A stretch of 64,000 bases of DNA from Methylohalomonas lacus (GTDB lineage Bacteria; Pseudomonadota; Gammaproteobacteria; Methylohalomonadales; Methylohalomonadaceae): NCBI RefSeq assembly GCF_024808875.1, contig NZ_JANUCT010000006.1:62001-126000 (forward strand), in the 5' to 3' direction. The notes under the pieces are model-generated. The model was not told the origin of the DNA, did not search any database, and was given only the letters and a program-made list of their open reading frames with translations. This document shows positions 16,391 to 32,253 of this stretch, piece after piece. Made by a program: the position numbers and the translations under genes. Position 1 is the first letter of the stretch. Each line of letters begins with the position of its first letter.

Positions 16391-16747
16391 ATGCTGACAT
16401 TCCAGGAGCTACTGGTATTCGCGCTGCTAATCGGCCTGCTGATTGGCTTCTGGGCCAGCAGCCTGCGGGCGCGCGAACAGGCCTTGATCAGTTGCCGCCG
16501 CATCTGCCGCGAATTCAACACCCAGCTGCTGGACCAGACCGTGAGCTTGACCCGACTGCGGCCGTCACGCGACGGGCGCGGTCGCCTGGTACTGAGCCGA
16601 CAGTATTCTTTCGAGTTCAGTCCTGACGGCCAGACCCGCTATACTGGTCGTCTGTACATGCTCGGCATGCGCGCGCAAAGCGCACAGCTGGATCTGCCCG
16701 ACGGCACTACGCTGGTATCGCCGGCCGGTCGGCGCCTGGACAGTTGA
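16391..16747 (+). CDS. DUF3301 domain-containing membrane protein
   Basis: A 118-residue protein with one N-terminal transmembrane helix (about residues 6-22, LLVFALLIGLLIGFWAS). A short cytoplasmic domain with conserved ALISCRRICREFNTQLLDQTV and RRQYSFEFSPDG-like segments follows, typical of DUF3301. Function unknown in the family. It starts 24 bp after srkA and is likely the third gene of the mltF-srkA operon. Confidence 0.8.
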   Translation: MLTFQELLVFALLIGLLIGFWASSLRAREQALISCRRICREFNTQLLDQTVSLTRLRPSRDGRGRLVLSRQYSFEFSPDGQTRYTGRLYMLGMRAQSAQLDLPDGTTLVSPAGRRLDS

Positions 16748-16797
16748 CAAGCACAGCTGAAACGCGCTGCCGAACCCAATGATTGAAGGATAACACC

Positions 16798-17280
16798 ATG
16801 CCCTCTTTTGACATCGTCTCCGAAGTAGACCTGCACGAACTCGGCAACGCCGTTGACCAGACCAACCGCGAGGTCGGCACGCGCTTTGACTTCAAGGGCA
16901 GTAAAGCGCATGTCGAGCAGAACGAACACGAATTGACCCTGGTGGCACCGTCGGAATACCAGGTCAAACAGATGGCCGAGATGCTCGACGGCAAACTCGC
17001 CAAGCGTGGTATCGACGTTGGCTGCCTGGAGCGCGGCCGCATCACCGAGACCAATAATGAAGCGCGCCAGGTCATCACGGTACGCCACGGCATTGACCAG
17101 GAACTCGGCAAGACGATCAGCAAGCGCATCAAGTCCAGCGGTCTGAAGGTCCAGGCCTCGATTCAGGGCGAACAGGTGCGCGTGACCGGCAAGAAACGCG
17201 ACGATCTGCAGGAAGTGATGTCGATGTTGCGCGAGGCCAAGCTCGGCCTGCCGTTGCAGTTCACCAATTTCCGTGACTGA
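16798..17280 (+). CDS. YajQ-family nucleotide-binding protein
   Basis: A 160-residue UPF0234/YajQ protein. The ATG at 16798, preceded by GAAGGA with 7-nt spacing, gives the family start MPSFDIVSEVD. Conserved segments include DQTNREVGTRFDFKGSKA, GLKVQASIQGEQVRVTGKKRDDLQ and the terminal LPLQFTNFRD. YajQ proteins bind cyclic di-GMP or nucleotides and have been tied to transcriptional control in Xanthomonas. Length and ends match the family. A longer frame from 16783 exists but has no better ribosome site. Confidence 0.93.
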   Translation: MPSFDIVSEVDLHELGNAVDQTNREVGTRFDFKGSKAHVEQNEHELTLVAPSEYQVKQMAEMLDGKLAKRGIDVGCLERGRITETNNEARQVITVRHGIDQELGKTISKRIKSSGLKVQASIQGEQVRVTGKKRDDLQEVMSMLREAKLGLPLQFTNFRD

Positions 17281-17494: not shown

Positions 17495-19702
17495 CTAGGC
17501 GCTGCCGTTGTTTTTGGCACGGCTCTCGGCAATCGTTTCCAGCTCGGCATTGATATCCGACAACAGCAGGTCATCGCGGGTGCGCTCCTGTTCCTCGGTG
17601 GCCGCTGCCTCCTTCTGCATGCGCTGCATGGTGGACTCGTAACGCTGGATCAGTGCTTGCTGTTTCGCCGAACGCGGTTGCTGTGCCTGCTCCTGCATCC
17701 AGTTTTCGATCTCGGCATTCATGTCTTCAAGCAGATCCGATTCGGCCTGTTCGGTCCTGGCCAGTGCTGCGGCATTTTCCTGCTGTTCGTCCAGCGCATG
17801 CTGATGCTCCTGCTCGGCTTCTTCATAACGCGCCGTCGCCGCACGCAGCGCCGTATCAGAGTCGCTATTGCGTTCATCCTTATTCGCCGTACCAGCTGCA
17901 GCTTCTTCCTGCAGCGCCTGACGCACGGACTGGGTTGCCTGCTTGTCGATCAGGGTCTGCTGAACCTTTGCCGACAGCTGCTGTGCCTGGCTCTGCAACT
18001 GCTCGCGTTCCTGACTGAGCTTTTCCTTGCTGTCCTGGTAATCGCTGAACTCTTCATTACCGGCCGCCAATTCGTCGCCGATTTGGCTGACTAGCTCGTG
18101 CGCCGCTTCGGTCTGTACCTGGCGGCGCTGTTCTTCGCTGGCCCGCAGATCTTCATTGAATCGATCGAACTCAGCCTCGAGCGCGTCCGGACTATCGCCG
18201 GCACTATCACTGATGCCATGCAGACGCTTTTCCGCCCTCTGTTTTTCCTGCTGCAGGCGTTCGATCTCGGCCTCGCGCGCCTGGTATTGCTCGGTAATGC
18301 GCTTGCGCTCCTCGGCAACACGCTGCTCGATCAGGGTGTTCAGGTTGGAAACACGGCGTTCCATCGCCTGCTCACGCTGGCGGACACCCGCATACAGGCG
18401 CTGCTTTTCCTCCACCAGACGCTTTTGCAATTGCTGGGTCTGCTCCAGCATTTCGCGAACCTGCCGGGACTGTGTATTCAGGCGTTCACGCTCGGCATGC
18501 ATTTGCACCACCGCGGCGCGCTCGGCTTCGCGGCGTGCCGCCTCGGCGTCCCGCTTCAGGCGCATGGCATTATCGACCTGGCGCAACAACCCGGTCAGTT
18601 CATTACGTAATGACTGCAACAGCGGATCGCTGTTGTTATTGATCGTGATCTCTTCGCTTTCCGGCAACGGTCCGTCATAACCGCGCGCCACCACCAGCCC
18701 GCCCTGCAGCCAGCTGACGGTATAACCCTGTACGGCGAGCACGAAAGCGGCGACCGCACTGCGCGCACCGGAATCGCAAACGACGAGGTAGTGCTTGTCC
18801 TTGTCCAGCGCATGGCGACCGTTTACCAGATCCGTAACGGCCACATGGCGGGCGTCCACCTGCGGGTCAGCCGTAACCTCGGCCGTTTCGCGGACATCGA
18901 GCCACTGCGCGCCCTGCTGCAGATGCTGCCGTGCCATTGCTTCATCCAGCCGATCGAATAGCGGCAGGTTGAGCAGTTCATCGAACGATCGCTGTGACAG
19001 ACGCAGTAATGCGCCGTCACTGTGCATGGTCACGGTCATGCTGTGCGGCACGCCGGCGAGCAGGCTCACTTCACCGAACCAGTCGCCGGGACCAAGTTGC
19101 GCGATCGTTTCCAGGACACGGCCGCGCTCGTCACAGTACGCCACGTCACAGTGCCCGGACTGAATAATGTAGAAAGCACCGTCGTGGCTGTTCTGTTCAA
19201 TAACATTCTGCCCGGCACTGAAGGCCAGCGCTTCGCATTGACTGAAAAGCTGCTGCAGGTTGGCCGCCGGCAGGCGTTTGAACAGTGGCGACTCGAGCAG
19301 GCGCTGCAGCCAGTCTGAGGTTTCACCGCTGGCCTGGTCTGTTGCCAGTAATGGCTGCAACAGCGCCGGCAACAGCAGGGCATCAAACCAGCCGCGGTCG
19401 AGACATAACACGCTGCTGTCACTGAGCGCGCGCGCCGTGGCCAGACGCGGCTGCAATGGTGCCAGGGGCAAACAGTCACCGGCTTCAACCTGCCACCGGC
19501 TGCCATTCGACCGCAGTTCCAACCGGCCCTCGATCAGATAGTGCACGGTCGAGTCGACCGCACCCGTTTCAAACAGCCGGGCGCCCTTGTGCAAGGGCCG
19601 CAACTCAGCCTGACTGAACAGCAACTGTCGCCGTGTCGCAGACAGTGCCGCCAGCGGCTGTAACTGCTGAAAAGCGGGATCAGCGGACTGTGGCGCTTTC
19701 AT
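17495..19702 (-). CDS. cNMP-binding-like / rhodanese / coiled-coil protein A
   Basis: A 735-residue cytoplasmic-looking multidomain protein with no signal or membrane segment. Domains in order: a degenerate cyclic-nucleotide-binding fold (about 25-110); a second, better one (about 140-245) with the phosphate-binding-cassette-like FGEVSLLAGVPH, where the usual Arg after Pro is His220; a rhodanese domain (about 255-345) with active-site loop C309-DSGAR; then coiled coil to about 650; and a conserved tail with IENWMQEQ. It is a paralogue of the gene at 20469, same strand and same order. Loss of the cassette Arg suggests weak or no cNMP binding, whereas the rhodanese Cys is kept. No known system matches this domain order as far as I recall. 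Confidence 0.8.
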   Translation of the reverse strand: MKAPQSADPAFQQLQPLAALSATRRQLLFSQAELRPLHKGARLFETGAVDSTVHYLIEGRLELRSNGSRWQVEAGDCLPLAPLQPRLATARALSDSSVLCLDRGWFDALLLPALLQPLLATDQASGETSDWLQRLLESPLFKRLPAANLQQLFSQCEALAFSAGQNVIEQNSHDGAFYIIQSGHCDVAYCDERGRVLETIAQLGPGDWFGEVSLLAGVPHSMTVTMHSDGALLRLSQRSFDELLNLPLFDRLDEAMARQHLQQGAQWLDVRETAEVTADPQVDARHVAVTDLVNGRHALDKDKHYLVVCDSGARSAVAAFVLAVQGYTVSWLQGGLVVARGYDGPLPESEEITINNNSDPLLQSLRNELTGLLRQVDNAMRLKRDAEAARREAERAAVVQMHAERERLNTQSRQVREMLEQTQQLQKRLVEEKQRLYAGVRQREQAMERRVSNLNTLIEQRVAEERKRITEQYQAREAEIERLQQEKQRAEKRLHGISDSAGDSPDALEAEFDRFNEDLRASEEQRRQVQTEAAHELVSQIGDELAAGNEEFSDYQDSKEKLSQEREQLQSQAQQLSAKVQQTLIDKQATQSVRQALQEEAAAGTANKDERNSDSDTALRAATARYEEAEQEHQHALDEQQENAAALARTEQAESDLLEDMNAEIENWMQEQAQQPRSAKQQALIQRYESTMQRMQKEAAATEEQERTRDDLLLSDINAELETIAESRAKNNGSA

Positions 19703-20111
19703 GGAGTCACCCTACTCTGCCGATAGGTCAATAGCCAGTAAGCAATATGTGCCTGAAAACGGGCACCGCGCGGTCGGCACCGCAACAGGCCCGGTTATCA
19801 CGTCGTCAGTAAAGCAGAACCGCCCTGGCAACGGGCAGCAAAAGCGGCGAACTGTGACTGTCATCACGGGCCCGGGCAAGGGAGTGTGAACTGCGCCTCA
19901 CCTTGTTCGGGCGGCCTGTGCCAGCGCCGATTGTCGGGATGGGGCGACAGTTTTGCGCCAATACTGCCGTAACACGGCACTCTGCATGCCGGTCCGTCAC
20001 CCGGCCAGGGTCGTGACCGTGCCTACCCGTCGTTCAATAAGCATTTGTTTTAACGTTTTTTTTAGCTTCATTCGGGAACCGCGACGGCTACTTCCAGACG
20101 CCCGGCCGTTG
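19703..20111. other. intergenic region upstream of the sigma-54 promoter
   Basis: No gene seen. It separates divergent genes: coiled-coil protein A to the left and the small unknown gene to the right. It contains a dyad TGTCG-N8-CGACA (19932-19949) that could be an activator site. Confidence 0.5.
19932..19949. promoter_or_regulatory. dyad, candidate enhancer-binding-protein site
   Basis: TGTCG, 8 bp, CGACA. It lies about 165 bp upstream of the -24 element of the sigma-54 promoter, a normal distance for a bacterial enhancer-binding protein. Inferred from symmetry and position only. Confidence 0.3.
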
Positions 20112-20126
20112 TGGCACAGCTCTTGC
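20112..20126 (+). promoter_or_regulatory. sigma-54 (RpoN) promoter
   Basis: TGGCAC-N5-TTGC: the invariant GG (20113-20114) and GC (20125-20126) are separated by exactly 10 bp. All bases of the common -24/-12 core are met. The predicted start of transcription is about 20138, giving a leader of about 47 nt before the ATG at 20185. Confidence 0.7.
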
Positions 20127-20184
20127 GATACCTCTATCAACAAGCACTGACGCAGCACGAGCTGCCCGAAGGGAGATGCAAAAC

Positions 20185-20448
20185 ATGAAATTCGAACAGA
20201 TGATGCCCGCCAGCGACCTCGAGAAGGCCTGTATCTGGGATATATTCCGGGCCGAGGATCGACTCTGGGACATCGAGGCGGAACTGCTCAACGATCTGCA
20301 CTACTACGAGCGTCGTGCCGCATCCATGGCACAGGCCGCCACACAGGCCGACCGGGCATTACTGACCATCTACAAAAGCCATATCCGGCGCATCAATGGC
20401 CTGCTGTCGCGGTTACCACAGCAACAGGCACGCGATACCGCGGACTGA
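20185..20448 (+). CDS. small protein of unknown function, sigma-54-dependent
   Basis: An 87-residue soluble protein rich in Ala, Arg, Asp and Leu, predicted to be almost wholly helical (LEKACIWDIFRAEDRLWDIE..., then a second amphipathic helix RALLTIYKSHIRRINGLLSR). No signal peptide, Cys motif or known domain that I recognise. The ATG at 20185 is chosen because GGGAG lies nine bases upstream; ATG 20176 is too close to it. It sits between the two cNMP/rhodanese/coiled-coil genes on the opposite strand, with its stop 20 bp from that of protein B. The strong sigma-54 promoter implies induction by an enhancer-binding protein. Confidence 0.75.
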   Translation: MKFEQMMPASDLEKACIWDIFRAEDRLWDIEAELLNDLHYYERRAASMAQAATQADRALLTIYKSHIRRINGLLSRLPQQQARDTAD

Positions 20449-20468
20449 GCCAGCACCGCTGAATCGTA

Positions 20469-22817
20469 CTACTTCTTGTCGCCGAGCTGATCGGCTATTT
20501 CATCCAGCAGGCTACGCGCGGCATTCTGTGATTCGCGCTTGGCAGCTTCCGAGCGTTCCTTGATTCGACGGATGTGCTCCGCCTGTTTATTCAGTACTTC
20601 CTGAGACGGGGCTTCCAGTTCATTCTCCGTCAGCCACTCTGACACCTCGTTTTCTATCTGCTCACGCAGTTTCTGCTCTTCCGCCGATTGCCGGGCCAGG
20701 CCACGAACATTGCTGTCCTGGGCGGCCTGGACCTTTTGCTGCGCTTTTTCGGCCTCGGCGAACTCGGCCCGCGCCTGTTGCGCCTCGGCTTCCGCCGCCT
20801 GCACCCGCTGCTGCAGATCGCGGTCCTTGCGCTCGCTGTCCTGTGCCATTTTGATCTTCAGTTTCGCCAGCTGCGCCTCGGCCCCCTGGCGCGCAGCCTC
20901 GGCATCCTGTTTGGCCTTGTCCGCCGCACTCATCGCTTCACGCAACTCGCGTGACTGTTTTTCCAGGCGTTCACGTTCGGCCTTGAGCTTGGCTTCCTCT
21001 TCCGCGCGTACTTTGGCATGCGCTTCCTTGAACTCGGCGATGATCTGCTGGGCCTCGTCGTTGGCCGCCTGACGCGCAGCCTCGGCCGCGGCTTTCTCAC
21101 GCTGTGCCTCCTCAAGGGCCTCGTTGCTGCGCTGGTACTGCTCCGCCAGGTTCCGGCGCTCGGCCTCGATCTTGCGCATTGCCTCATCCTGAAGCTGCTT
21201 TTCCATGCTGGCCTGTTGCTGACGTTGCTGTTCGGCCTCGCGCTCGATCGCCGCTTTTGCCTCGCTGAGCTGCTGCTTGATGCTATCGGCTTCCTGCATG
21301 CGGCGCTGCGCCTCGGTGGAATCGGAATCGGCCTTTTCCTGTGCCGCCTTGATCTGTGCCTCGGCCTGCTGCTTGAGCGTACGCAGGCGTTCCATTTCCT
21401 TGGCGTTCTGCGCGTAAACCGCCTCGAGTTTTTCCTTCTGCTGTTTGAGTTGCTGCTCGGTTTCGGCACGCAGTTTCGCGATGCGTGACTCTTCGGCTTC
21501 GCGGTGCTTGCGCGCCTCTTCGGCTGCCTGTTGCTTGGCCGCTTCCAGGCGCGCGTGTTCGGCACGCAGCTTCTCGATCATGGCCTCGTATTCGGCGCGC
21601 TTGTCCGCGTTACGCTCGGCGTTGTTGTCTTCTGCCGCCTGTTCCACCTCGTAATTCGCGACTGCCGCTTCCGCCGCATAGGCCGAGGCGCGTACGTCGG
21701 CATCAACGATCTCCTCGGCCTGATCATCAGCCGCCACGCCGCTGGTCAGATCGTCCGCCGGGCAGTTCATCAGACCGCCATCCAGATAACTGGCCGTGTA
21801 ACCCTGTTGCGTCAACAGAAAAGCTGCCACTGAGCTGCGGCCGCCGGAATCACAGTAGGCGATATAGTGCCGGTCCGATTGCAGCGTGCTGGTGTCGCCG
21901 CGCAGGCTGGCCAGTGGCAGGTTGAGGCTGTCCTCGATATGTGACTGGGCGTATTCCTCGGGCAGGCGCACATCCAGCCAACAGGCCCCGGCCGCAATAC
22001 GCTGACAGGCGTCAGCATAATTCAACCAGCTCAGTGCCGGTTTCTTGATAAGCTCGATGAAGTGTTCCTTGGTCAGCCGCATCAGCACGCCATCGCTGAG
22101 CATGCGCACACTGGCGTTGCGTTGGGCATCGGCGAGCAGAGCTTCTTCACCGAAACCATCGCCAGGACCGAGCTCCGCGAGCCTGATGGGATCGCCGCCG
22201 TCCGCAGAGCGGCATAGCACCTCGCAACGGCCCTCCTGGACAATGTAGTAATAATCGCCTGGACCACCCTGTTCAATCACCCAATCACCGTGGCTGAATT
22301 CCACCGGTTCGAGTACGGTGAACAGCTGGTGGATGTTGGCGGTAGGCAGTCGTGAAAACAGCTCCGACTGCAAAATACGGGTCATCCAGTCGATTTCCTC
22401 ACCGCCGTTGTCGAGTTCACTGATCTCGACATTGCTGTCAGTCCGCGACTGGTTCTCTTGCTGCTCAACCACCAGCAGCTTGTCGAGCGCGGGGCGTTTG
22501 ACCTGCAATACGGTCGCGCGGCTGGCGGCACGCGCCGAAAACTGGCGCGGCTGCAGCTGGGCGATGGGATAGCGGGCGGAATCACTACCGCCCTTCAGTG
22601 TGCTGTGGGTCTGACCATCGGCCTGCATTTCGAGTTCGCCGGCGAGCAGATAATACGAGAAATCATCACGATCACCCTGCTGGAACAGGTAGCGACCGCG
22701 TGGCAGATCGAGGATTTCCGAACGCTTGATGACCTCGTCCTGATAGCGCTGTGCCAGGCTGAATATTGGCACCAACTGGCGTATGGTCTCGGTAAATTGT
22801 TCCTTCACATCGGCCAT
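20469..22817 (-). CDS. cNMP-binding / rhodanese / coiled-coil protein B
   Basis: A 782-residue paralogue of protein A. The first cNMP-like fold covers about 35-115. The second (about 150-258) has FGEEALLADAQRNAS with Arg233 in the cassette position, so ligand binding is plausible. The rhodanese domain (about 270-350) has active-site C322-DSGGR and LDVRLPEEY. From about 370 to 720 it is nearly pure Ala/Glu/Gln/Lys coiled coil. The tail has SEWLTENE and ends LLDEIADQLGDKK, resembling the tail of protein A. ATG 22817 is preferred to TTG 22844. A perfect -10 box (TATAAT) lies 76 bp upstream. The predicted role is a scaffold coupling a nucleotide signal to sulfur or persulfide chemistry; this is inference. 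Confidence 0.82.
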   Translation of the reverse strand: MADVKEQFTETIRQLVPIFSLAQRYQDEVIKRSEILDLPRGRYLFQQGDRDDFSYYLLAGELEMQADGQTHSTLKGGSDSARYPIAQLQPRQFSARAASRATVLQVKRPALDKLLVVEQQENQSRTDSNVEISELDNGGEEIDWMTRILQSELFSRLPTANIHQLFTVLEPVEFSHGDWVIEQGGPGDYYYIVQEGRCEVLCRSADGGDPIRLAELGPGDGFGEEALLADAQRNASVRMLSDGVLMRLTKEHFIELIKKPALSWLNYADACQRIAAGACWLDVRLPEEYAQSHIEDSLNLPLASLRGDTSTLQSDRHYIAYCDSGGRSSVAAFLLTQQGYTASYLDGGLMNCPADDLTSGVAADDQAEEIVDADVRASAYAAEAAVANYEVEQAAEDNNAERNADKRAEYEAMIEKLRAEHARLEAAKQQAAEEARKHREAEESRIAKLRAETEQQLKQQKEKLEAVYAQNAKEMERLRTLKQQAEAQIKAAQEKADSDSTEAQRRMQEADSIKQQLSEAKAAIEREAEQQRQQQASMEKQLQDEAMRKIEAERRNLAEQYQRSNEALEEAQREKAAAEAARQAANDEAQQIIAEFKEAHAKVRAEEEAKLKAERERLEKQSRELREAMSAADKAKQDAEAARQGAEAQLAKLKIKMAQDSERKDRDLQQRVQAAEAEAQQARAEFAEAEKAQQKVQAAQDSNVRGLARQSAEEQKLREQIENEVSEWLTENELEAPSQEVLNKQAEHIRRIKERSEAAKRESQNAARSLLDEIADQLGDKK

Positions 22818-22892
22818 GACGAGTCGTCTCAACGGAACGGTCAACCCGTGACGGGCGGACCTGGCGAACCTGCGGGCTCATGCCTGAGTCTT

Positions 22893-22975: not shown

Positions 22976-23659
22976 ATGCGTATGGATATCATCACGCAAA
23001 TACCCGGCAGTATCGGCATCGGCAGCGCCGTATTGCTGTCACTCGGCCTGCTGTTTTTCATTATCGCCTGCACGCGCCTGCGCCGGCGGCGCTGGCTCGG
23101 TGCCGGCGGCCATGGCCTGTTCAGTATCACGCTCCTGGCCATAGCCCTGGCGCTGGCGGCCGTGGGCTTCAACCTGCACACCTACCAGCGGCTCACACAT
23201 GAACGCGACGTTGCCGAAATCAGCTTCCGGCAACTGGCACCGCAGCGTTTCCAGGTACGCATACACTATCCCGACGACAAGCGTTATCAGGAACTGCAAC
23301 TGTCCGGGGACGCCTGGCAGATCGATGCACGCGTACTCAAATGGCGTGGCCCGGCCCTGCTGGCCGGACTCGACAGCGGTTATCGTCTGGAACGCATCAG
23401 CGGTCGTTACGAAAACATCGAGGCCGAGCGCAACCAGACGCGCAGCGTCCATGCACTCAGCGATAACCCCGGTGTCGATCTCTGGTCGCTGACACGGCGT
23501 TTTGAGCGCTGGCTGCCGTGGCTGGATGCGGGTTACGGTAGCGCCACCTATCTGCCCATGCGCGACGACGCCCGTTACCGGATCAGCATGACGCAGACCG
23601 GACTTATTGCCCGCGCCAGTAACGCCGCCGGGCAGCAGGCCATCGATGCCTGGCATTAG
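22976..23659 (+). CDS. hypothetical membrane-anchored protein
   Basis: A 227-residue protein with two N-terminal hydrophobic helices (about residues 14-33 and 48-68). A C-terminal soluble domain of about 155 residues has no Cys (YRLERISGRYENIEAERNQ, LPWLDAGYGSATYLPMRDDARY). Related proteins are sometimes labelled 'multidrug transporter' or 'cation efflux', but there is nothing transporter-like here. No strong Shine-Dalgarno is visible; ATG 22982 is an alternative start. It reads away from protein B and precedes two small exported proteins. Function unknown. Confidence 0.7.
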   Translation: MRMDIITQIPGSIGIGSAVLLSLGLLFFIIACTRLRRRRWLGAGGHGLFSITLLAIALALAAVGFNLHTYQRLTHERDVAEISFRQLAPQRFQVRIHYPDDKRYQELQLSGDAWQIDARVLKWRGPALLAGLDSGYRLERISGRYENIEAERNQTRSVHALSDNPGVDLWSLTRRFERWLPWLDAGYGSATYLPMRDDARYRISMTQTGLIARASNAAGQQAIDAWH

Positions 23660-29256: not shown

Positions 29257-31344
29257 TCATCTGTCAGCAGGCTGCGGCAGCCACAGCTGCATGCGCACGC
29301 CGGCACCCTGCTCGAGGTTTTCGGCGCGCAACCGACCCTGGTGGAAATCAGCGATCAGCCGTGCCAGAAACAGACCGAGGCCGAGATGCGCGCCGCTTTT
29401 CTGGGTGTTGCTGCGCTGGCTGACGAGCGAGTCGAACAGTTGCCCGTCCATGCCTGCCGGTAACGGCGGCCCCTGGTTGTCGACGGCGATCGTCACCCCG
29501 TCCCCCTGTATTTCCAGCTGGATAACGATCGGCGTTGCCGGTGTGGCGAAGTCGTTGGCGTTGCTGACCAGCTTATCCAGCAGCTGCACGAGCAGATCCG
29601 GCGCCACGTCCAGCCACACCGGCGCATCCGGGCACCGGTAGACGAACTCGCGCGGCGCGTAGGCATCGCGGTAGCCCTGGATGCAGGAGTCCAGCAAGCC
29701 GTTTAGATCGACCGGCTCGGTTTCGGCCGCCTGCAGCGCCTGTTCTAGGCGGGCGGCTTCGCTCAGGCGCGTGACCAGCTGGTTCATACGCCGCAGGCCG
29801 TCACGGGCACGCTCGATGAAAACCTCGCGTTCCGCCGCGTCGCTGCCGTCGAGATTGTCCAGCGACGACTGCACCACGGTCAGTGGCGTGCGCAGCTCGT
29901 GCGCCAGACGCCCGGCCATGCCTTCGAGGTAATCGTTGTAACGCTGCAGGCGTTCGAGCATGGCAGCGTAGCCGCGCGACAGGTCGCCGATTTCGTCACC
30001 GGCGCGGCTCGGCTGCAGGCCGCCGACCACGCGACCGTGTTCGTCGATGGCGGCTTCCGCCTGGCGGTTCAGGTGACGCAGGCGCAGCGACAGGCGCGTG
30101 GCGAAGATGAACAGCAGCAGCGTCACCAGGCCGTAGGCCAGCAAAGTCTTGTTGACCAGGCTGGCCAGCGCGGCACGCTTGAGCATCTGGATCTGGTGCG
30201 TGGTTTCCTCGACGACCACCGCGCCGCGCACATCGCCGGCGACGCGGATCGGTGCCGCGGCCGAGGCGATCACCGCGCGGCCGTCCGGCGACGCGCGCCA
30301 GCGGCTGCGCGCCTGTCCGGCCAGCGCCGCCTGCACATCGGGCCCGCGCAGCCGCGACGCGCCGGCGAGATCGTCGGTGAAGTAACGCGATGGCGGCGGC
30401 AGGATCAGGTTATAGAGAAAGCGGCCGCCGGGGTTATCCAGATCGCGGCGGATGTTGCCGTGACTGGCCAGCACCTGGGCATCATTGTTCAGCACCCAGA
30501 CACGGCGACCCGGATCGTCGGCGGCAAAACCGACGAGCTGTTCAATGCGTGCCGACGAGCTTAGTAACGGATTCGGCCGGCGCGCGGTAGCGGCACCGGC
30601 GGTGGCGACATTGTGCGCCAGGCTGCGCGTGTCGGCGTCGTCCATGTCGTGCACGCTGACGCCCAGTCCCTGGTAATCGGCCGGTGGCAGCCGCACTTCC
30701 AGCGTATAGCCGTTGCCATTCGGCTGCCATTCGCCGCGGATGTGGGTCGCGTAGTGCTGCACGGTATAAGGATGGTCATAAGCGTCGCGCGCCTCGCTGA
30801 CGCGGAACGGCCGCAGCGAACCGGGTGCCGCCGGCGCGAAATACCACTGCTGCAGATCGCCGTTGGCACCTTTCAGGGTAATCTGAACATGGTCGCCGTC
30901 GCGGTTGTCGTCGCTGGCCGGACGCTGGTAGATCACCCGGTCGTCACGGACCTTGAGCAACAGATACAGGCCACCCCGATCGCGGGCCAGGATCAGGCGG
31001 TAGGCCAGCGAGTCGCTGTCGGCTGCCGAATAGGTTTCCGACCAGTCGAGAAAATCCAGCCAATCGTCGCTATAGCCGTCCAGCTCCACCGGCTGGCGCA
31101 GGCGGTGCACATACAGCGCCGCCGGCCCGTCCGCGCGTTGCGGAAACAGGTTCGCGCGTTCGTGCAGCGACCCGGCCACCGCACGGGCGCTGGCCAGCAG
31201 CGATGTTTCCAGACCGTCGCGCAGGAAGCGTTCCATCTCGCGCAGGTATTCGAGGCCGACGAATGGCAGGCTGATCACCGCGATCGACAGCAGCAGCAGT
31301 TTCCGGCGCAGGCTGAACCGCAGGCGATGTTTCTGTTTCCGCAT
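29257..31344 (-). CDS. pdsS: sensor histidine kinase of the dedicated-sortase type (PdsS)
   Basis: A 695-residue membrane sensor kinase. An N-terminal TM helix (about 13-30) is followed by a large periplasmic domain with carbohydrate-binding-like segments (RQPVELDGYSDDWLDF, LLLKVRDDRV, GDHVQITL; about 75-260). A second TM lies near residue 390-410, then HAMP, the H-box LAHELRTPLTVV, the N-box LDKLVSNANDF and the G-box AVDNQGPPLP. Overall it looks like the kinase of the 'proteobacterial dedicated sortase system' (TIGR03785). It lies 11 bp after the response regulator pdsR. The assignment rests on overall resemblance and on the neighbours pdsR and pdsO; the sensed ligand is unknown. Confidence 0.8.
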   Translation of the reverse strand: MRKQKHRLRFSLRRKLLLLSIAVISLPFVGLEYLREMERFLRDGLETSLLASARAVAGSLHERANLFPQRADGPAALYVHRLRQPVELDGYSDDWLDFLDWSETYSAADSDSLAYRLILARDRGGLYLLLKVRDDRVIYQRPASDDNRDGDHVQITLKGANGDLQQWYFAPAAPGSLRPFRVSEARDAYDHPYTVQHYATHIRGEWQPNGNGYTLEVRLPPADYQGLGVSVHDMDDADTRSLAHNVATAGAATARRPNPLLSSSARIEQLVGFAADDPGRRVWVLNNDAQVLASHGNIRRDLDNPGGRFLYNLILPPPSRYFTDDLAGASRLRGPDVQAALAGQARSRWRASPDGRAVIASAAAPIRVAGDVRGAVVVEETTHQIQMLKRAALASLVNKTLLAYGLVTLLLFIFATRLSLRLRHLNRQAEAAIDEHGRVVGGLQPSRAGDEIGDLSRGYAAMLERLQRYNDYLEGMAGRLAHELRTPLTVVQSSLDNLDGSDAAEREVFIERARDGLRRMNQLVTRLSEAARLEQALQAAETEPVDLNGLLDSCIQGYRDAYAPREFVYRCPDAPVWLDVAPDLLVQLLDKLVSNANDFATPATPIVIQLEIQGDGVTIAVDNQGPPLPAGMDGQLFDSLVSQRSNTQKSGAHLGLGLFLARLIADFHQGRLRAENLEQGAGVRMQLWLPQPADR

Positions 31345-31355
31345 CGTGCCCGCGG

Positions 31356-32048
31356 TCAGTGACTGTTCCAGCGATAACCCATGCCGTAGACCGCCTCGAT
31401 ACAGTCGAATGCCGGGTCGAGGGCGATGAACTTGCGGCGGATGCGTTTGACGTGCGACGTAATGGTCGCGTCGTCGACGAACAACTCGGCGTCCTGCATG
31501 AGCTGATCACGGCTTTTGACGTGGCCGGGTAGCCGCGCCAGCGAATAAACGATCCAGAACTCGGTCAGGGTCAGCTCGACCGGCTGACCGCGCCAGTCGG
31601 CGGTCATGCAGGAGCGATCCAGGTGCAGCTCGCCGCTGGTCACCACCTCGCGCTGTTCGGCCGCCCCGCGCAGCGCCTCGATGCGGCGAAACAGCGCCGC
31701 CACCCGCGCCAGTAACTGCGCCAGGGTGATGTCCTTGGTCAGGTAATCATCGGCGCCCAGGCGCAGACCCGATACCGTATCCAGTTCCGAGTCGCGCGCC
31801 GTCAGGAAAATGATCGGCAGCGCCGCCGAGCGCGCGCGCAGCTCGCGGCACAGGTCAAAACCGCCCTCGTGTTCATCACCGAGGCCGATATCGACGATAA
31901 CCAGGTCCGGCAGCTTCGAGGCCATGCCCTTCAGGGCCGCCGGCCGGTCGGCGTAAGCCTGAACCTCGTAGCCCTGGCGCTTGAGTGCGGTGGTGTAGTT
32001 CTCGCGGATGGCGGGCTCATCCTCGACGATAACGATACGCTTGGCCAA
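31356..32048 (-). CDS. pdsR: response regulator of the dedicated-sortase type (PdsR)
   Basis: A 230-residue OmpR-type regulator. The receiver has acidic pocket VEDEP, phospho-Asp in VIVDIGLGDE and Lys in LTKDITL. The C-terminal winged helix ends IEAVYGMGYRW. The GGFDLCRELRA and GLRLGADDYLTKDI segments match the 'proteobacterial dedicated sortase system response regulator' (TIGR03787). The start chosen is TTG 32048, because GGGAGG lies nine bases upstream and it gives the usual AKRIVIVEDE beginning. An ATG at 32093 would add 15 residues. Divergent from pdsO across a 205-bp promoter region, which it probably controls. Confidence 0.85.
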   Translation of the reverse strand: MAKRIVIVEDEPAIRENYTTALKRQGYEVQAYADRPAALKGMASKLPDLVIVDIGLGDEHEGGFDLCRELRARSAALPIIFLTARDSELDTVSGLRLGADDYLTKDITLAQLLARVAALFRRIEALRGAAEQREVVTSGELHLDRSCMTADWRGQPVELTLTEFWIVYSLARLPGHVKSRDQLMQDAELFVDDATITSHVKRIRRKFIALDPAFDCIEAVYGMGYRWNSH

Positions 32049-32253
32049 CGCTGGCTTCCCTCCCGGTGTTCGGCAATCAGATACAGACGGCATAGTGTCG
32101 CGAGCCGGCCATGGACACAAGCCGGACAATCCTTCGTGCCATCGTTTTGCCATGATTCATCGGCGCTTTGCCCGATTCATTCCCGTCCGGCGCCTCCGGC
32201 GTGCGCTTTAATCTGTATCGAAATCAACCCCGCAACGTCCGGAGGAACCGACA

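Follow-up and report, generated by a model that had tools for sequence, protein, structure and literature searches.

Bacterial cAMP is usually viewed as acting through CRP. The closest functional analogue known to us of the proteins described here is CbpA (PA4704) of P. aeruginosa, reportedly characterised by Endoh and Engel in 2009 as a cAMP protein other than a transcription factor, and said to join a degenerate N-terminal to a competent C-terminal cyclic nucleotide-binding (CNB) domain; we know of no coiled coil or twin in its case.

Fusions of CNB and rhodanese domains occupy one table row, labelled 'Other_bacterial', in the survey of Kannan et al. 2007 (PMC2246266), and the passage concerned does not mention tandem CNB domains, a coil, twin genes or a function. 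Recurring cNMP domains, duplicated paralogues and rhodaneses are also found in family 2 encapsulin operons (PMC8346489), where both the family 2B encapsulins and the accessory rhodaneses of family 2A parallel the use of domains at the present locus. Beyond this survey entry and the encapsulin parallel, a literature search on CNB plus rhodanese found no functional study.

Here we analyse two paralogues, A and B, encoded in a 64-kb stretch of DNA (the window). Both are members of a large gammaproteobacterial family of uncharacterised function, with a strong relative of B in 150 of the 369 sampled genomes of the class (~40%). A preliminary description of the locus had considered that a nucleotide-gated sulfurtransferase scaffold would be new. 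Given this abundance and the survey row on CNB-rhodanese fusions (PMC2246266), the architecture as a kind is not; what is new is that domains already known occur here in a twin arrangement that is conserved and uncharacterised.

Domain composition of A and B

Both genes lie on the reverse strand, and their products have the following parts (residue limits approximate where marked):

17495..19702, reverse strand: protein A, 735 aa; CNB1 ~12-130, CNB2 ~140-245 with His220 replacing the cassette Arg, rhodanese ~252-336 (Cys309), coiled coil ~350-735
20469..22817, reverse strand: protein B, 782 aa from ATG 22817; CNB1 ~9-120, CNB2 ~143-259 with FGE at 222-224 and Arg233, rhodanese ~268-352 (Cys322), coiled coil ~365-782

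Both reading frames are intact. That of B spans 20469-22844, and the ATG at 22817, which agrees with the end of the interval given in the preliminary description, is the likely start, a TTG at 22844 being possible. In a Pfam profile search, PF00027 matched two stretches in each protein (89.4 bits in A and 102.2 bits in B, against a curated cut-off of 27.5 bits) and PF00581 matched a single rhodanese in each (24.6 and 51.6 bits, cut-off 22.2 bits). This search, proposed in the preliminary description, upholds for both proteins the order of cNMP, cNMP and rhodanese that had been read there, and every residue number given (C309, C322, R233 and His220) is correct.

The two rhodanese cysteines each lie within a CDSGxRS loop. 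A residue check likewise bears out the reported difference at the second CNB domain, where the phosphate cassette of B is complete (the FGE motif plus Arg233), whereas A has the cassette Glu and a His in place of the Arg. No helix-turn-helix as in CRP/FNR was matched in either protein by profile search, rhodanese and coil standing there instead, and the search matched neither a kinase domain within the two polypeptides nor an HK97 shell domain. A and B thus differ from family 2 encapsulins in having no HK97 match and in carrying their domains fused in a single polypeptide. A third member of the family in the same genome, G000:C19, is a short form of 354 aa without a coil, whose CNB2 gives a weak score with the encap_f2b model.

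Structure of the B head and its possible ligand

Modelled with AlphaFold from 85 relatives, the B head folds with a mean pLDDT of 93 into a tandem CNB module of PKA-R/PKG type plus a rhodanese. Foldseek gives PKA-R and PKG as its best PDB matches, both through their tandem CNB modules, and B shares with them two successive CNB domains and, in CNB2, a PKA-type spacing from FGE to Arg. B differs from these proteins in that its CNB1 is without an FGE motif, a rhodanese and a long coil follow, the A and B polypeptides have no kinase domain, and the relative placement of the domains is not the same (TM ~0.3). Sequence profiles match CNB and rhodanese structures separately, none of the best stretches listed spanning all three domains.

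Because B has the PKA-type cassette, the likeliest mechanism would be a repositioning of the rhodanese by a ligand at CNB2. Five class III cyclase domains are encoded in the genome, together with a CRP that scores above the equivalog cut-off, so that a cyclic nucleotide is probably made. That the CNB domains bind a ligand different from cAMP and cGMP, like CprK/CooA-type relatives or the nucleoside-binding PKA-R of kinetoplastids, we regard as distinctly unlikely: the ligand has been switched in other CNB families, according to a passage of the 2007 survey (PMC2246266), and the Foldseek matches of the B head include a T. cruzi PKA-R with a bound nucleoside, but the Glu and Arg that make the cyclic-phosphate contacts in PKA-R are nearly invariant in the family, and class III cyclases are at hand.

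Conservation of the cassette arginine and the rhodanese cysteine

The Gly and Glu of CNB2 are invariant in the heads of 120 relatives (120/120), and the cassette Arg is kept in 117. Three genes lack it: A, which has His; the gene in the position of A in L067, which has Cys; and one of the two tandem genes in L079. Each of them is a member of a twin pair. Two of the five genes in the position of A (A-slot genes) have lost the Arg, compared with 3/120 overall (hypergeometric P 0.004, for a comparison chosen post hoc and with kinship ignored). The preliminary description had envisaged a heterodimer with one silent sensor. The confinement of Arg loss to twin members agrees with this, but the Arg persists in three of the five A-slot genes, and silence is therefore a state of some lineages and not a property that defines the pair. 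In our preferred reading, A is the fast-evolving and probably nucleotide-blind partner of B.

The rhodanese Cys is present in 111 of the 120 relatives. The remaining nine have Ser, four of them among the ten membrane-helix forms, and catalysis may on this account be dispensable in some relatives. CDC25-like and other inactive rhodaneses are precedents for a rhodanese that serves as a binding module, and A and B could by analogy be a non-enzymatic, CbpA-like scaffold that governs localisation or polarity in dependence on cyclic nucleotide. Consistent with such a role are the Ser variants, the rod-like tails with their widely varying length, and the CbpA precedent of a degenerate CNB domain paired with a competent one. 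We nevertheless consider it rather unlikely, since the Cys is intact in 35/35 short forms, in 12/12 forms with an FGE-fold domain and in 5/5 A-slot genes.

Coiled-coil tails and their C-terminal signature

The coiled coils of A and of B each comprise roughly 400 residues, which would extend for ~60 nm if continuous. Heptad-like periodicity is pronounced in both tails (z = 9.3 in A and 7.7 in B against composition-matched shuffles), with best periods of 3.55-3.6 residues, in agreement with the coiled coils already recognised in the preliminary description. Their ends contain similar elements:

17498..17710, reverse strand: C-terminal tail of A, with IENWMQEQ (665-672) and LLSDINAEL
20472..20642, reverse strand: C-terminal tail of B, with SEWLTENE (726-733), HIRRIKERSEAAK and LLDEIADQL

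The resemblance of IENWMQEQ to SEWLTENE had been pointed out before, and the signature recurs in relatives with soluble coils: an [EDQ]-h-x-x-[WY]-x-x-[EQ] element occurs in 26 of 50 against 0.8 expected from shuffles, and an LLxDIxxQL-like end in 24 of 50 against 0.15 expected, both patterns having been composed only after the first alignments had been seen. The likeness between the tails of A and B exceeds chance.

Gene neighbourhood of the twins

The genes around the pair in the window are as follows:

16391..16747, forward strand: DUF3301 gene, conserved neighbour on the A side
16783..17280, forward strand: YajQ-like gene (named by sequence recognition, no HMM), conserved neighbour on the A side
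20176..20448, forward strand: gene of a small helical protein of 90 aa (87 aa if started at ATG 20185), conserved next to A-slot genes
22976..23659, forward strand: 227 aa protein with a hydrophobic N-terminal part, divergent conserved neighbour of B
29257..32153, reverse strand: histidine kinase and response regulator of the proteobacterial dedicated sortase system (TIGR03785 and TIGR03787, above cut-off)

The gene order in L066, L067 and L068 is c4, B, fae, c21, the small gene on the opposite strand, A, YajQ and DUF3301; fae and c21 are missing between B and the small gene in the window. Distant relatives keep the twin order, with A adjoining YajQ/DUF3301 and B on the far side. At four loci of other families (L193, L198, L199 and L080), a B-type gene stands head to head with a partner that adjoins DUF3301 and usually YajQ too, and DUF3301/YajQ neighbours are also present in L066-L068, L080, L198, L199 and L208. 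As to whether the pair and the small gene co-occur elsewhere, a check suggested in the preliminary description, they do recur together in other genomes.

A and B form separate transcription units, between which the small gene lies on the opposite strand. In L069 and L075 B has no adjoining A. G119, the genome of L081, carries its A-slot gene together with the small gene at L190, on a contig other than that of B. The pair is therefore not an obligatory unit, and the small gene, which stays with the A-slot gene away from B in G119, goes with A.

In phylogenetic trees A has the longest end branch, and its placement is unsure. The AU test does not reject one clade comprising the five A-slot genes (p-AU 0.535), and it marginally rejects placing A with the larger partners on the YajQ side in other families (p-AU 0.044). 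With so long a branch A could be decaying, and it might be a relaxed B paralogue that has no partner role, leaving B to function alone as a homodimer. The branch length, the lost cassette Arg, the weakest of the rhodanese scores and the lone B genes of L069 and L075 all speak for this reading, which we hold to be unlikely: A retains a frame of 735 aa, the rhodanese Cys with its loop, and the tail signature, and its slot is conserved along with the small gene in distant genomes.

Other neighbours recur on the B side. Relatives of the 227 aa protein, for which Pfam and NCBIfam gave no match, adjoin B at ~10 loci. A homologue of formaldehyde-activating enzyme (PF08714) lies directly downstream of B in L062, L066-L068, L075, L076 and L081, followed in most of these loci by an unknown protein of 400-430 aa; both genes are missing downstream of B in the window.

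The pdsR/pdsS genes adjoin B in L059-L061, L063, L064, L066, L068 and L075, and in the window the kinase gene of the sortase system is 6.4 kb from B. A and B might on these grounds be part of a dedicated sortase system for cell-envelope anchoring, with B as its cytosolic regulator. The adjacency is real within the B clade; yet it is missing in most genomes that have either system, and the two occur independently elsewhere, so that we consider such a role very improbable. Clustering recognised no sortase or sortase target gene within the 64-kb window.

The small gene and its sigma54 box

Upstream of the small gene is a candidate promoter element:

20112..20127, forward strand: sigma54 (-24/-12) box, TGGCACAGCTCTTGCG

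It is the sole strict TGGCAC-N5-TTGC match in the window and one of 12 genome-wide, and ~2.1 Mb of retrieved DNA contains 10 strict boxes. The small-gene homologues in L059, L066, L068 and L190 have equivalent boxes upstream, and three more (G120, G133 and G245) have looser ones; the homologue in L067 has an imperfect -12 element. RpoN is encoded in the genome.

The small protein is predicted to fold as a two-helix hairpin, and searches returned no Pfam or NCBIfam family and no significant fold match for it; weak matches to TscT fell below the cut-off and were disregarded. The gene was detected in five of the 369 genomes, three of them weakly, all five of which also hold at least two coil genes. 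In G120, G133 and G245 the homologue has a TtcA-like gene nearby and stands away from the coil pair.

Architectures of the family

Members of the family have one of four architectures: short forms without a coil (347-417 aa, n=35), soluble coils (443-1362 aa), coils with one membrane helix (790-1249 aa, n=10) and coils with an FGE-fold domain (1373-1879 aa, n=12). The form with coil and membrane helix is represented, for example, by L133 of the cultured Thiohalophilus thiocyanatoxydans DSM 16326. The architectures group on the tree yet have been switched repeatedly. In a phylum-wide sample, all matches of the short form fall within the same class, and relatives are absent from plasmids at E 1e-10.

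The giants with an FGE-fold domain (L045, L048, L087, L089 and eight other loci) run from CNB-CNB-rhodanese through a very long coil and a membrane helix to a domain of the FGE-sulfatase/SUMF1 fold, which A and B do not have. A simple hydropathy rule detects the helix in 11 of the 12, and its flanking residues mostly obey the positive-inside rule with the head inside. Head and coil fused in this way to a membrane helix and an outer domain are as expected for a rod that transmits a signal. The giants differ from FGE enzymes in having no Cys at the catalytic positions: in an alignment of the 12 domains, none follows closely behind RGGS, judged by the position of the Cys pair in human FGE.

Short CNB-CNB-rhodanese genes (L056, L057, L103, L108, L120 and L136) lie near PilZ-like and MltG-like genes, and also have DNA polymerase III delta-prime-like and thymidylate-kinase-like neighbours, all four names resting on sequence recognition and not on HMMs.

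A model for the A/B pair

We tentatively propose, as a plausible reading that falls somewhat short of probable, that A and B, as subunits or interacting homologues, make up a rhodanese scaffold in the cytosol that responds to cyclic nucleotides, with B sensing and A nucleotide-blind. We counted in its favour the domains, the B-head model, the nearly invariant cassette, the rhodanese Cys kept in 111 relatives, the cyclases and CRP, the coil and tail, the recurring twins, the A-slot clade that was not rejected, the sigma54 box and the membrane-spanning fusions of longer relatives; counted against it were the Arg kept in three of five A-slot genes, the Ser variants, the long branch of A, the non-obligatory pairing and the separate transcription units.

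According to this model, cAMP or cGMP would bind CNB2 of B, CNB1 being structural or degenerate, and, in the manner of PKA-R, the ligand-bound CNB2 would swing the rhodanese against the two CNB domains. The shift of the rhodanese would switch a persulfide relay or the binding of a partner. The coils of A and B may pair as a dimerising rod, in which B would be the sensing subunit and A, in this lineage, a nucleotide-blind, modulatory one, with the conserved C-terminal helix docking a common target. The sigma54-controlled hairpin might then bind the rod of A or its target under a condition that activates RpoN. The model in its fullest form, a cyclic-nucleotide-gated persulfide relay on a hetero-coiled-coil rod with B sensing and A blind, a target shared through the C-terminal helix, tuning by the sigma54-induced hairpin and periplasmic FGE-fold fusions elsewhere in the family, is highly doubtful as a whole.

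Sensor and sulfur-transfer heads are joined here in a large, uncharacterised family, which therefore suggests that cyclic nucleotides and sulfur chemistry are linked in a way so far unexplored. The family couples its sensor to a rhodanese and a rod instead of a CRP-type output, and the twin pair offers a natural comparison of a sensing with a blind member. If the model is true, the family would let a second messenger act directly on sulfur chemistry or on a cytoskeleton-like scaffold.
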